Positions 51,892 to 64,000 of a stretch of 64,000 nt of DNA are shown piece by piece. Numbering within the stretch: position 1 is the first letter of the stretch; each line of letters begins with the position of its first letter. The DNA comes from Candidatus Gastranaerophilales bacterium (lineage in GTDB: Bacteria > Cyanobacteriota > Vampirovibrionia > Gastranaerophilales > Gastranaerophilaceae). The DNA lies in assembly GCA_944324315.1 (NCBI GenBank), contig CALUVW010000001.1, positions 1-64,000 on the forward strand. Direction: 5' to 3'. The notes below the pieces were generated by a model, which was given only the letters and a program-made list of their open reading frames with translations, was not told the DNA's origin and made no database searches. The position numbers and the translations under genes are program-made.

Positions 51892-53253
51892 TTAATTATT
51901 CAAACTATGAATAGGAGCAGGAATTCTTCCTCCCCTGCGGACAAAATTTGCCGACGAAAGTGTATTTACAGACATAATTGGAGCTTTACCCAACAATCCT
52001 CCATATACAACTTCATCTCCTATATTCTTTCCCACAACAGGAATAATTCTAACAGCAGTTGTCTTTTTGTTAATCATACCGATAGCCATTTCATCGGCAA
52101 TTATTCCTGCGATTGTTTCAACAGGCGTATCACCCGGTATTGCAATCATATCAAGTCCGACAGAACATACAGAAGTCATTGCTTCAAGCTTATCAAAAGT
52201 TAAATATCCGTTTGCTGCCGCTTCAATCATCCCTGCATCTTCAGAAACAGGAATAAAAGCACCTGATAGTCCGCCGACATGAGAACTTGCCATTATCCCG
52301 CCTTTTTTTACGGCATCATTAAGCATTGCAAGTGCAGCGGTTGTACCATGCGCTCCTGCATGTTCAAGTCCCATTGCCTGAAAAATTCCTGCAACACTAT
52401 CGCCTTCAGCAGGTGTCGGAGCAAGTGATAAGTCAATTACACCGAACGGAATACCGAGTTTATGAGCCAGCTTTCTTCCGACAAGTTCTCCGGTGGAAGT
52501 AATTTTATATGCGATATGTTTTATTTTGTTCGCAAGTTCACTCATATCTGCATTTTTATCAAGAGCCTCAATTGCGGCTCTTACGACTCCGGGACCTGAG
52601 ACACCGACATTAAGCGCACATTCAGGCTCGCCTGTTCCGCAAAAAGCTCCTGCCATAAAAGGATTGTCGCCAGGAGAATTACAAAAGACAACAAGTTTTG
52701 CAGCAGCTAAACCGTCAGAATCTTTAGTAAGTTCTGCTGATTTTTTAATTATTTCAGCCATTTTTAAAACAGCATCCATATTTATTCCGGCTTTGGAAGA
52801 TGCAACATTTATTGAAGAGCAAAGTCTTTCGGTTTGAGAAAGAGCCTCAGGAATACTGTCTATAAGCATTTTATCCCCTTTTGTGCAACCTTTCTCAACA
52901 AGAGCAGAAAATCCGCCGATAAAATTCACTCCAACATCTTTCGCTGCTTTGTCTAGAGTTTTCGCAATTTTTACATAATCAGGATTTTTACAAGATTCTC
53001 CGATAAGAGATATCGGGGTGACTGATATTCTCTTATTCACAATCGGTATTGAATAAGCATTTTCAAATTCATTTGCATATTCAACGAGATTTTTTGCGTA
53101 ATGCAAAATTTTGTTGTATATATTTTCACACACAACATTAACATCACTATCCATACAATCCCGCAAACTCAAGGCCAATGTAACTGTTCTGATATCAAGA
53201 TTGTACAGTTTAATCATATTTATTGTTTCTAAAATTAAATTTTCATTTATCAT
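51892..53253 (-). CDS. UPF0210/DUF711 (PFL family) protein
   Basis: The 453-residue protein matches the PFL/DUF711 family throughout, including [41 protein letters not shown] and [17 protein letters not shown]. The family is widespread in anaerobes and structurally related to pyruvate formate-lyase-like barrels; its reaction is unknown. Its start overlaps the stop of the OmpA-like gene by 4 bases. Confidence 0.9.
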
Positions 53254-53948
53254 AAATGCTGTACTCCATGGAAAAATACTTCGGTAACATCCATATTTTT
53301 AACTTTCAAACGCATTTCAACGCGTCTGCTTTTGTTATAATCTTCTTTTCCGTTGACCAGTATCGGATCTGAATAGCTTTTGCCCTCTACCACCAGTATC
53401 TTTTTTAATTTTTCGTTGTACTGTTTATCATAATTTGTCTTAAATATATAATCAGCTACAGAATTTGCCCTTTGAAGGCTCAAACTCATATTTTTCATAT
53501 ACTGTTCATCGGGATTTTTAATTCCTGCGTAAGACTGACTGTCTGTATGACCTTGAATAATAATATTATCAATATCTTTTATAAGTTCTTCTTTTGAAAA
53601 AATTGTATTTATGTAAATAGGAATTAGTTTATCCAAATATTCCTTACCTTTAGGCGAAAGATTATAACTGCTGAGTTCAAAAAGTTCGAGATCGGAAATT
53701 TTTATATCACCGGTCATAGGATCAACCTGAGCATTAATGTTTGCTTTTTTCAGATTTTCAATAAGTTCTTTGTTGACTTCAATCTGCTGTTTTTTCTTTT
53801 CCAGCGTCTGCTGAGTAAATCCTGTTATCGCAAGCACAAACAAAGTCATAAAAATAATAGCCAGACCTAAAAGCAAGTCTGCCATAGTTGTCCAAAATAT
53901 ATTATTATCGCCCTCTTGAGCTGCTTGTTTTCTGGGCATCAAAGCCAT
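53250..53948 (-). CDS. ZorB/MotB-like OmpA-domain protein
   Basis: The 232-residue protein has one N-terminal transmembrane helix with the ion-pathway Asp in [19 protein letters not shown] coiled segment and an OmpA peptidoglycan-binding domain ([33 protein letters not shown]) follow. This is the layout of ZorB, the stator rod protein of Zorya defence, and of MotB. It pairs with the ZorA-like gene 15 bases upstream. Confidence 0.82.
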
Positions 53949-53963
53949 AAAACGCCTCCGGAA

Positions 53964-54872
53964 TTAAAATAAATCATCGACATCATCTTGCTTACCGCCA
54001 TTTTTAGCAACTTCTTTCATACTTTTATTAACTTGATTTAGTCCGAAAATTAAATTTTCAAGATATGGAACTAAATTGCTTGCAATACCTGAATTTAATG
54101 CTGTTTTAAATTGCTGGGGCATTGCTGCTATCAAATTTGATATTGAATTATTTTGAATTTTTGTTTCTCTCAATAATTCAAGAAGGAATTTTTCTGATGA
54201 TATATTATCAAACAACTTTCCAAGAAGCTCTTCACATTTTAATAGCTGATTTTTACACATATTCTGGAAAGAAATTCTCTCAAAAATCAAAAACACAAGC
54301 GAAGAACCAACCGCAATAACAGAAACAAGAGCAGCAACTTGCATGCTTGACATCAAATTGGCAACTGAAGCAATTGTTTTTTCCTGAGAAGAAAAGTCTA
54401 TTTTGCTGAATGCAATTGCAATATTTAAAAATGTAAATAACGGACCGAAACCGGTCAAGACAGTCGGTACACTCTGTAAGAATTTGTTGTTAAATTTTGA
54501 TGTAATAAGAGATTCTTCATTAAAAAAGTAAAGCGGGTCAACAGTTGTTTGAACATTTTGAACGGTTGAGGATATTTCTTTATAAGTCAAATCATTATTT
54601 TGTCCCTTAAGAGCAACTGATTCAGAAAACACAAGAGTATTTTTAAATTCCAGCCATGCAGCGGATACATAAGGGTTTGCACTCATCCATTCATCAATTT
54701 CTTTAAAACGGAAATTTAGATCTGTTTTTTTAAACATAGAAAGAAATTGTACAAGTATTTTCAAATTTCTGTTTACGAAAATGTAGTTTTTCATACAGTA
54801 AATTATTGAAAACAGAAAAGTAAAAAGAACTATAAGAATTGGAATATCAGTAAAAATAATTAATAAATTCAT
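53964..54872 (-). CDS. ZorA/MotA/ExbB-like channel protein
   Basis: The 302-residue protein has an N-terminal transmembrane helix, a cytoplasmic region, and two further helices. The latter include VPTVLTGFGPLFTFLNIAIAF and VAALVSVIAVGSSLVFLIFER, the channel core of MotA/TolQ/ExbB proteins, with the ZorA-like LTG-GPLFTF turn. The C-terminal tail is short (~100 residues), unlike the long tail of type I ZorA. It would form the pentameric ring around the OmpA-like partner. GGAGAG precedes the ATG. Confidence 0.8.
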   Translation of the reverse strand: MNLLIIFTDIPILIVLFTFLFSIIYCMKNYIFVNRNLKILVQFLSMFKKTDLNFRFKEIDEWMSANPYVSAAWLEFKNTLVFSESVALKGQNNDLTYKEISSTVQNVQTTVDPLYFFNEESLITSKFNNKFLQSVPTVLTGFGPLFTFLNIAIAFSKIDFSSQEKTIASVANLMSSMQVAALVSVIAVGSSLVFLIFERISFQNMCKNQLLKCEELLGKLFDNISSEKFLLELLRETKIQNNSISNLIAAMPQQFKTALNSGIASNLVPYLENLIFGLNQVNKSMKEVAKNGGKQDDVDDLF

Positions 54873-55043: not shown

Positions 55044-57389
55044 TTACTTTATTTTTGCTTCAAGTTGTTTAATGCATTTTTCAAGTTCATTAATTTTTTG
55101 CTCTTGAGCTTTATATTTTGCATCAAGTTCCTTGATTTGTTGTTCTTGCGCCATGTATTTTGCATCGAGTTCTTTGATTGCGTTTATCATGGCATAGAAC
55201 ATATCCTCAAAGCGGATTCTAAGAAAACCGTCTTTTGCTTTGCTTACTGCATCAGGGAAGATTTTTTGTAAATCTTGTGCGATTACACCGACATGAGGGG
55301 TTTTCTTTTCATCTTTTTTGAAGGTATAGTTAAAGACCTTTAGTTGACGGATTTTGTCTAAGCCTGAGGTGTTTTCCTTGCCTACATATTTCAAGCGACG
55401 GTCAGAAGCAAAACTGTTAAAACCGGGGATCCAAGCCGATACACCACCTACATCACCTTCAGGACGAAGGTTATCGTCATCACCCTTAAAATCATCACCA
55501 ACTACTATACTCATAAAATCCCTTCCAAGTGGACGCAAGAAAACTCCTGCTTGTGTAGAATCATAGCCGAGTGCAGAATGCATACCTACAACAAGATTCC
55601 CTGGGATATATACAGTAGTAGATGAATTTCCCAAATATATTATTTCCGAATCATCTGATGAATTAGATCGAGCATATGGAGGTCCTGAATTTACACCAAT
55701 ACAAACTTTATTACTCCCTTCTACATCATTACAAGCTTTATACCCAATTGATATATTATTTGTATTAACAGCTTCAGCTCCGGCTCCAATAGCAATTGAC
55801 CGTGTACCGCTTGCAACAGCACCATCCCCTATTGCTACTGAAGAAGTATTTTCTGCTCCAGAATCATTTCCTATTGCAACCGCAGAACTAAAAGCAGATG
55901 TTGCCTGACTTCCCAGAGCAATACCTGCAGAACTAGCTTTATAGCCTATAGCAATTGCTTCAACTGAACTTGTATTGGTGTCTTTACCTATTACAATACT
56001 GCCATTATTAGAAGCTTTAGCATTCATTCCAATAGCTACTGTTTCGGGTGCATTACCTTGAGCAAGATACCCTACCGCTGTCGCATAATCAGATATTGAT
56101 TTAGCCTCTGGTCCTAACGCTGTAGTATATTGTTTTTCTGCGCGACTCTGTGCACCGACCGCAACAGCAGATGTTAAAGTTGCATAAGCACTATATCCTA
56201 TTGCTGTTGACATTTGGGATCTTGCTTGTGAACCATACCCGACAGCAGTATTTCTACTTATTGATCCTGATGAATACCCTTCTGCCAAGGCATAGGCACC
56301 TATTGCAGTTCCTTCTTTTTTTAATACCTGTGCATTATAACCTACAGCAACCGAATAGTCTGCAACAGCTTTAGATATATAACCAAAGGCACTTGAATAT
56401 AATCCTGTTGCAGTGCTTTGTGCCCCGACTGCAGTTGAACCGCTATTAGTATCATCACCACCAGATGCTCCTGCTTTATAACCTATAGCAATTGAATTAT
56501 TCGATTCTACTTTAGCCTCCTGACCTATTGCTAGAGTATATTCTGCATTTGCTAAAGAACTATTACCTATTGATATTGATGCAGAATTTGTAGTTTCTGC
56601 TCCATGACCAATTGCTATAGTATTATCTACCGTTTTTTCAGCAGAATTAGCCTGATAACCCAAACCTATGTTATTACTTCCGCTTACATAACGTAGAGCA
56701 TGCACACCTATTGCAGTATTGTTACTGCCGGAATTTTCCGCAAAGGCATCTACGCCGACTACTGTATTATTATCGCCTGTGCCCAAATGATAGGCATTAG
56801 CTCCAACGGCTGTATTATTACTACCTTTATTCTGCTTCATTGACTCGGCACCTATAGCAGTATTAGCCTGGCCGGTCTCATTTTCTAACAATGTGTTATA
56901 CCCTATTGCTGTATTTACACTACCCTTTAATGAACCGTTGCTTAAAAAAGTATTGCCGCCGCTTAAATACAAACGACCTGTTATTGCATCTTCTCCTTTC
57001 TTAAACAAGATATGGGCGGCCTCATCATCATGACCCGTCACGGCATTGATTATTAAGCGCGCATAATTCCCGTCAATCTCTTTCTTTTCCTTCTGACCGA
57101 TCATTGCGGTTTGCGTATCTCCTAAACCAAAATATGTATCTGCACGGTCATCCGTCCATTTCCAAGGCGATGAATTATCTCGCATTGAATTGTCACGAGT
57201 GGTCATGACTGGAGCCATCGCTGCCAATATGATACTCATGATCAGCAATACTACCATCATTTCTGCTAAGGTAAAGGCTAAATGAGAAAAATTTCTCATT
57301 TTTTTAGAAACTGATAATTCCCCGAAACTATTGGCAGGAGTGCTTAAAACGCCCCCCCCCCCGAGTTTTTTAATAATAATTCTTTTCAT
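55044..57389 (-). CDS. Pilin-anchored YadA-head/Peptidase S74 adhesin, frame depends on a poly-G tract
   Basis: The 781-residue protein starts at the ATG at 57387-57389 after AAAGGAGTG (the frame extends 16 codons further). Residues 10-13 are GGGG, encoded by an 11-G run. Then comes a type IV prepilin segment (HLAFTLAEMMVVLLIMS, cleavage before Phe, Glu at mature position 5, Ala instead of Gly at -1). About 400 residues of YadA-type head repeats (NTAIGYNTLLENETG-like units) follow. Next is the S74 self-cleaving chaperone from about residue 660 (SDRRLKYVG, Ser-Lys pair), with a coiled-coil tail built on IKELDAKY-AQEQ repeats. This combines a pilin-like anchor with a phage-fibre-like trimeric adhesin. 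Confidence 0.85.
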   Translation of the reverse strand: MKRIIIKKLGGGGVLSTPANSFGELSVSKKMRNFSHLAFTLAEMMVVLLIMSIILAAMAPVMTTRDNSMRDNSSPWKWTDDRADTYFGLGDTQTAMIGQKEKKEIDGNYARLIINAVTGHDDEAAHILFKKGEDAITGRLYLSGGNTFLSNGSLKGSVNTAIGYNTLLENETGQANTAIGAESMKQNKGSNNTAVGANAYHLGTGDNNTVVGVDAFAENSGSNNTAIGVHALRYVSGSNNIGLGYQANSAEKTVDNTIAIGHGAETTNSASISIGNSSLANAEYTLAIGQEAKVESNNSIAIGYKAGASGGDDTNSGSTAVGAQSTATGLYSSAFGYISKAVADYSVAVGYNAQVLKKEGTAIGAYALAEGYSSGSISRNTAVGYGSQARSQMSTAIGYSAYATLTSAVAVGAQSRAEKQYTTALGPEAKSISDYATAVGYLAQGNAPETVAIGMNAKASNNGSIVIGKDTNTSSVEAIAIGYKASSAGIALGSQATSAFSSAVAIGNDSGAENTSSVAIGDGAVASGTRSIAIGAGAEAVNTNNISIGYKACNDVEGSNKVCIGVNSGPPYARSNSSDDSEIIYLGNSSTTVYIPGNLVVGMHSALGYDSTQAGVFLRPLGRDFMSIVVGDDFKGDDDNLRPEGDVGGVSAWIPGFNSFASDRRLKYVGKENTSGLDKIRQLKVFNYTFKKDEKKTPHVGVIAQDLQKIFPDAVSKAKDGFLRIRFEDMFYAMINAIKELDAKYMAQEQQIKELDAKYKAQEQKINELEKCIKQLEAKIK
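57352..57362 (-). repeat. 11-G homopolymer in the coding strand of the adhesin
   Basis: An 11-base C run on the plus strand lies 26-36 bases into the adhesin coding sequence, before the pilin segment. Gain or loss of one base would stop translation before the anchor, so the length found here corresponds to ON. Confidence 0.85.
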
Positions 57390-57502
57390 ACTTTCACTCC
57401 TTTTTTTATTTATATTTTTATTATAATACATGCTCAAATTTTTTTCAAGATTTTTTGTTTTTATATAAACCTCTAAAAAATCATGACATTAATATAAAAT
57501 TT

Positions 57503-63403: not shown

Positions 63404-64000
63404 ATGGTAAAAGACATTAAAATGTTAGGTGCAAGGTTAGACAAAGAAAATATTAAATTGAGCAAGGAGTTGCCCCCCCCCCGACTGGTCAAAAGGCTGT
63501 CCTGAACGTATTTCAAGGCAAGTTGCCAATTACAGAAGATGTTAAAGATTTTCTTTCTTTATTTGATACAAAAAAAGACGGAATTATTGACGAAAAAGAA
63601 ATTATTACACTAAACAAAGTATTAAATGATCATGCCGGTAAAGACAAAGTTCTTGATAAGAATGAACTTTTACAAATATTTGGTCTTACACCGCAGTCAA
63701 AAAATGCAGATAAAATTTTTGAACAGTTTCAAACTGTTGTCCAAAGAGCTTCAAAATATTCTTCTCAAACCACAAAAACACTTGACCAAACAGGAAAGAA
63801 CACCGTACAGTAAACACATTTGAAGCAGATGGCAAAACTATAAAAACAAGCGAAAAAAGTTATTATAAAAGAGGCGCCCTGCATAAAGATTATTACGAAG
63901 GTGCAAATCTTCAAAACAGACTTAACTATTTACCATCTGAAAGAACAGTATATGAAGATGATGGAAAAAACATTAAACAGGTTATTAAAAACCAGTTTAA
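63404..64000 (+). pseudogene. EF-hand / DGK-repeat gene broken at a poly-C tract and again at ~63810; runs off right edge
   Basis: A start with good SD (AAAAGGAG) at 63404 opens MVKDIKMLGARLDKEN... and hits a run of 10 C at 63473-63482. In this frame it stops at 63514. With 8 or 11 C bases the frame would continue as TGQKAVLNVFQGKLPITED into an EF-hand (DTKKDGIIDEKE) to 63813. A second shift near 63810 would continue it as VNTFEADGKTIKTSEKSYYK to the window edge. It may be phase-OFF, a decaying pseudogene, or contain sequence errors. Confidence 0.6.
63473..63482 (+). repeat. 10-C homopolymer inside the EF-hand gene
   Basis: The run is flanked by G before and GA after (GC10GA), the same context as the 11-C run in the adhesin gene (GC11GA). 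Confidence 0.85.

Follow-up and report, generated by a model that had tools for sequence, protein, structure and literature searches.

The gene at positions 55044..57389 (minus strand) of the window, that is, of the whole 64,000-nucleotide stretch of Candidatus Gastranaerophilales DNA that was analysed, probably encodes an adhesin that is phase-variable by replication slippage in a G tract, and would be one member of a genome-wide set of prepilin genes whose tracts leave them OFF by default. A sequence-only reading had already proposed a trimeric adhesin displayed through a pilin-like leader and switched by slippage. Its architecture, frame logic and length variation were supported by our analysis, whereas the genome-wide set, the conserved flank and the polarity of the tracts had escaped it.

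The open reading frame spans 781 amino acids plus the stop and starts at an ATG (57389) preceded, 7 bases upstream, by a clear Shine-Dalgarno sequence, AAGGAG (57397..57402, minus strand), although it could be extended to an upstream TTG. The first nine codons are followed by the G11 tract, the presumed ON/OFF switch (57352..57362, minus strand, beginning at codon 10), and then by LSTPANSFGELSVSKK-MRNFSHLA/FTLAEMMVVLLIMSII, where the slash marks the predicted cleavage. In the same frame and on the same strand, we found a prepilin leader of 38 residues with a predicted cut between Ala38 and Phe39 (57276..57389), a hydrophobic prepilin helix (residues 39-63, 57201..57275), YadA-type head repeats (about residues 150-570, 55680..56942), an S74 domain in which the SDRRLK motif (Ser662 and Lys667) is followed by GVIAQD (55245..55406), and a C-terminal coiled coil (residues 727-780, 55050..55211). 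The head was recognized by the Pfam family YadA_head (PF05658, 3.2e-25, 8 stretches) and the S74 domain by Peptidase_S74 (PF13884, 7.3e-16) as well as by phage tail fibre PHROGs. The prepilin region scored under the Pfam gathering threshold for N_methyl (7.3e-4, 19.5 bits for 21.2 required) and passed the NCBIfam cut-off for TIGR02532 (18.0 for 16.3). Leader, Phe after the cut, Glu5 and hydrophobic helix are those of a type IV prepilin or pseudopilin. Among 18 adhesin relatives, F39 and E43 of the prepilin region and S662 and K667 of the S74 domain are invariant, and we take the Ser-Lys pair of SDRRLK to be the functional one of S74 proteins. The AlphaFold monomer (mean pLDDT 67) presents a confident beta roll at residues 284-570 (mostly above 85) and a long C-terminal helix that corresponds to the coiled coil, while the S74 domain and the prepilin anchor (helix at 41-57 and 59-63) were modeled with low confidence. 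Foldseek matched the model to the heads of BpaC, BoaA and YadA. The succession of prepilin, YadA head, S74 and coiled coil in one frame, as first read from the DNA, was thus borne out by the ORF, Pfam, NCBIfam and the model. The Ala preceding the cleavage Phe, singled out in the same reading, is the usual residue in this genome (Ala 63 vs Gly 15), and the prepilin peptidase it called for was found (PF01478, C20:19510-19896, 39.6 bits). This peptidase gene lies about 1.5 kb from dnaA (G000:C20:17491-19896).

YadA heads are normally carried by an autotransporter anchor, and S74 domains trim phage fibres and form trimers. The adhesin shares head repeats and fold with YadA-type trimeric autotransporters (YadA, 1p9h; BpaC, 7o23), but a C-terminal YadA beta-barrel anchor gave no Pfam family match in the protein, which has instead an N-terminal prepilin helix and ends with the S74 domain and the coiled coil. 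With the S74 intramolecular chaperones of phage tail fibres and MYRF (7dc3) it shares the SDxRLK and GxIAQD motifs and their C-terminal position; unlike in phage fibres, its S74 domain is joined to a pilin-type membrane anchor. From these families we infer that the prepilin helix would insert the ON protein into the inner membrane, that the prepilin peptidase would cleave it behind Ala38, and that the S74/coiled-coil chaperone would direct its trimerization and then probably cleave itself off ahead of Ser662. What would remain is a pilin-type stem bearing a YadA-type head.

The position of the tract suggests how such a protein could be switched, since slippage in G11 during replication would change the frame in which the coding sequence is read after its nine initial codons. 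As assembled, with G11, the adhesin is ON. Its frame is open at computed lengths of G8 or G11, and at G9, G10, G12 and G13 a stop is reached after 14-20 codons, in agreement with the earlier proposal that OFF variants would make only a short peptide. A long tract early in the ORF, with lengths giving both ON and OFF, is one of the features of a slippage contingency locus. Such tracts are exceptional in the window, where no G/C run of 6-9 bases exists besides one of 10 and one of 11, and where G9 is expected 0.01 times from dinucleotide shuffles and was matched 5 times (overlapping matches, in two tracts). We considered whether the tract could be incidental, with the adhesin starting at Met31. 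The resulting MRNFSHLA would be of normal leader length and tract-free relatives with short leaders exist, but Met31, the sole in-frame start near the cleavage site, has no Shine-Dalgarno sequence while Met1 has a perfect one, leader residues and tract are retained in many relatives, and a start with a Shine-Dalgarno no more than 15 codons away from the cut was found at only 7 of the 70 tract-bearing prepilin-type genes readable in this genome. We therefore regard an incidental tract as highly improbable and keep the upstream start, as the sequence-only reading did.

The second tract of the window, a G10 on the minus strand (63473..63482), reads as C10 at codon 24 of a plus-strand gene (63404..63813, ATG at 63404) that appears EF-hand-like by eye. 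This gene is OFF at 10, one base out of frame, and 11 bases would open it to 136 codons. The adhesin itself adjoins a minus-strand gene pair (53250..54872) encoding a 302-amino-acid protein, which has no family match in Pfam, and an OmpA-domain protein. At the corresponding junction of genome G011 (L045), a G10 stands just ahead of the OmpA-type start, where the window has CCGGAGG (53945-53965), and could at that position influence the ribosome site. At this junction, the only one compared, the tract takes the place of CCGGAGG and is no clean insert, so that we do not propose that it arose by simple insertion.

Fusions like that of the adhesin form a multi-copy family in this genus of Gastranaerophilales. 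The nine matches in its own genome are accounted for by the adhesin together with three or more paralogues (on contigs C4, C6 and C14), of which the C6 paralogue shares 77% identity over the first part of the protein. Short leaders devoid of tract are found in this paralogue and in some other relatives. Matches occur in 31 of the 39 genomes searched, own genome included, with several in nearly all genomes of the same genus, and the best-matching named records are Candidatus Gastranaerophilales MAGs. The viral contigs scanned with the adhesin leader and with a common tract flank gave no match. Among the relatives whose leader was read, eight loci are ON with G10 or G11 (L051, L063, L070, L074, L075, L084, which is the adhesin, L174 and L189), seven are OFF with G9 or G10 (L064, L175, L176, L179, L181, L182, L183), and three keep the homologous leader in frame with an interrupted or lost run (L052, L180, L184). 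Lengths of 9, 10 and 11 at the same leader position, in both frames, match the prediction of phase variation; with this variation among relatives, and with Met31 lacking a Shine-Dalgarno, neither of the outcomes that the sequence-only reading had named as refuting its switch was seen.

The adhesin tract has many counterparts in the genome, which contains 116 G runs of at least nine bases against about 0.7 expected from a first-order Markov model, 97 of them being exactly G10. About 96 of the 116 tracts could be read through the stretches around them, and 82 of these 96 have a length of exactly 10, on the assumption that the consensus of a metagenome assembly shows the length most frequent in the population. 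Prepilin genes of the FTLAEVLIT type number 122. Of the 105 that lie on contigs 1-27, 78 have a tract at most 750 bases upstream, and 77 of the 97 mapped tracts lie just upstream of prepilin genes. Metagenome assemblies are prone to homopolymer errors, but we give practically no credence to an assembly or sequencing artefact: the tracts recur in independent genomes of the genus and are nearly absent from other families, real sequence continues on both sides, lengths of 9, 11 and 12 occur too, and polarity is strict. In long leaders of prepilin loci of this genome (for example L104, L111 and L121), recurring segments stand between tract and cut, NVILNLFQDLVIRC, FLPLLGKDKRMG and YPPLPSLIREG, which resemble in-frame insertions of dispersed repeats.

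The frames of the 70 readable prepilin-type genes point to a common wiring, although their counts overstate independence because the loci are partly paralogues of shared ancestry. A tract of 10 bases, one short of ON, is present in 61 of them; four have 9 bases and need two, and another four have 9 or 11 bases in another phase, all eight being OFF. The only gene of the 70 that is ON is the G11 adhesin. In 66 of the 70 genes the ON length equals 2 modulo 3, whether the tract is read in the G sense (47) or in the C sense (19) and whatever its codon phase. The ON frame continues for a median of 299 codons past the tract and results in leaders of 19-181 residues, whereas the frame that results from one base fewer meets a stop within 8 codons in 66/70 cases, compared with 48% in shuffles; the third frame does so in 35/70, the null level. 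In genomes G007 and G018, +1 is required by each of the 21 prepilin loci whose tract has 10 bases, and three with 11 bases are ON. The 5'-terminal G/C tracts of prepilin genes would thus be switches for which the usual 10 is OFF and 11 is ON, and each cell would express a small, random portion of a large pilin/adhesin repertoire.

Tracts are also carried by genes of other kinds, among which L113, L148 and L279 are open at 10, and 11 bases are required in L085, L165, L270 and one glycosyltransferase of L168. The tract stands at the same place in the orthologues L165 (own genome) and L270 (G041), both OFF at 10, and likewise in L148 and L279, from two species, both ON at 10. L117 first seemed to be ON at G10, but this came from the choice of its start.

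The same regularity could be expected if G10/C10 were fixed and the frame restored during expression, by a -1 shift of the ribosome or an extra base from RNA polymerase, so that genes that look OFF are expressed at a fixed rate. The dominance of length 10, the +1 needed at essentially all length-10 prepilin loci and the intact ON frames suit such programmed slippage, as does the stop placed directly after the tract in exactly the frame where known frameshift sites have it; the uniform +1 requirement together with the adjacent stop keeps this explanation alive. It would, however, have to work alike for G-sense and C-sense genes, whose codons and RNA:DNA hybrids are quite different, and to supply other shifts at several loci with 9, 11 or 12 bases. 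Moreover, lengths of 10 and of 11 are both in frame among adhesin relatives, others of which have lost the run, tract lengths vary widely in two genomes of the genus (G002 and G006), and the strand rule described below tracks replication rather than transcription. On balance, we consider programmed slippage unlikely.

The orientation of the tracts bears directly on the choice between these readings. The G strand is uniform within contigs for 92 of 94 tracts, despite mixed gene directions. It switches from plus to minus between 758 and 823 kb of G018:C11, where the GC skew changes sign near 770 kb, and from minus to plus between 176 and 349 kb of G007:C1, where the skew changes sign near 320 kb. 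Since the strand switches match the changes of skew, the G run lies on the G-rich, presumably leading, strand, and its orientation follows replication direction, not gene direction. The gene dnaA was rejected as an origin marker, as it is not at the skew switch, and GC skew was used in its place. A G strand set by replication and not by transcription fits a process at the DNA level, which is favoured over programmed frameshifting when the equal behaviour of G-sense and C-sense genes is also taken into account. Replication slippage is thus our preferred explanation for the switch. Two observations count against it: the peak at exactly 10 is narrower than expected of a freely slipping tract, and MutS is present in the genome, which also rules out its loss as the cause of the tracts.

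The tracts share their flanks, with T at -2, C at -1, C at +0 and R at +1 (TC-G10-CR), at prepilin genes and at unrelated genes alike. This conservation is unexplained by simple slippage, and a sequence-specific step or a strong effect of context on stability may account for it. The flank, kept even at unrelated genes, its fixed polarity and the 5' segments common to many genes would also suit a silent archive, in which most tract-bearing prepilin genes serve as recombination donors and the tract is a signal for recombination or quadruplex formation, not a translational switch. We find this improbable, as every gene has its own ribosome-binding site, ATG and intact long ORF in one specific frame, and no expression loci distinct from donors were seen. 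As a tentative extension, which we hold as possible although doubtful, TC-G10-CR could be a replication-polar DNA element, present where most prepilin genes and a few others begin, whose length of 10 is generated or maintained by a process that is dedicated or sequence-specific; nearly all of the repertoire would then stay one base out of frame and rare +1 events would show single members, as in a lottery-type display.

Counts of runs of at least nine G range from 0 to 176 within the genus, mostly 25-100, and from 0 to 6 in other families of the order: the trait is common to most of the genus, and the other families are without it. In G041, 169 of 176 tracts are exactly G10, and no run of 7 or 9 was found in 400 kb of G007 and G018. 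Five genomes of the same genus (G013, G021, G023, G042 and G044) have 7 or fewer long G tracts, which we interpret as apparent losses. G002 and G006, also of this genus (L268-L296), have lengths of 9-15 and other flanks, with mixed strands as well in G002; theirs is a looser, classical regime, in which prepilin leaders are again among the tract carriers.

Phase variation is best known from pathogens. In Campylobacter jejuni NCTC11168, 29 poly-G/C loci of seven or more bases have been described (PMC4965091). As here, these G/C tracts lie within reading frames of surface-related genes and switch them by frame shift; unlike there, long tracts are about four times as numerous in the present genome and lie mostly at prepilin genes, with a sharp peak at 10, a default OFF state, a conserved flank and replication polarity. 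Bifidobacterium breve, a gut commensal too, has G-tract switches in two sortase pilus clusters, for which deep sequencing revealed an in-frame minority in culture (PMC9187656). The tract, of G10/G11 type, likewise occupies the first gene of its pilus cluster, but only two loci are concerned, the pili are of the sortase type and there is no genome-wide array. Neisseria meningitidis, with 115 genes for which length variants were observed (PMC5084427), offers a slippage repertoire of genome scale that includes surface proteins, but mixes repeat types and gene classes and does not tie a single tract type to a gene family. Our literature search, in which few subscription papers were covered, returned no report of phase variation in Gastranaerophilales, nor of one type of tract that is linked to a particular gene family and has replication polarity. 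The mechanism is therefore of a known kind, while its scale, default-OFF wiring and polarity appear new.

If this reading is correct, an uncultured lineage of gut cyanobacteria phase-varies about a hundred genes, mostly of one family, with a common default of OFF. It would then lead to predictions on tract lengths, on the share of 11-base alleles and on differences between hosts at about 100 loci per genome, testable in existing metagenome reads. The link between tract orientation and replication, together with the shared flanks, leads one to ask how the length of a slipping tract is determined. The combination of a pilin anchor, a YadA head and an S74 domain would be a way to display a trimeric head in the absence of an autotransporter barrel. 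The cell appears to keep a large set of surface proteins silent and to wear very few of them at once.
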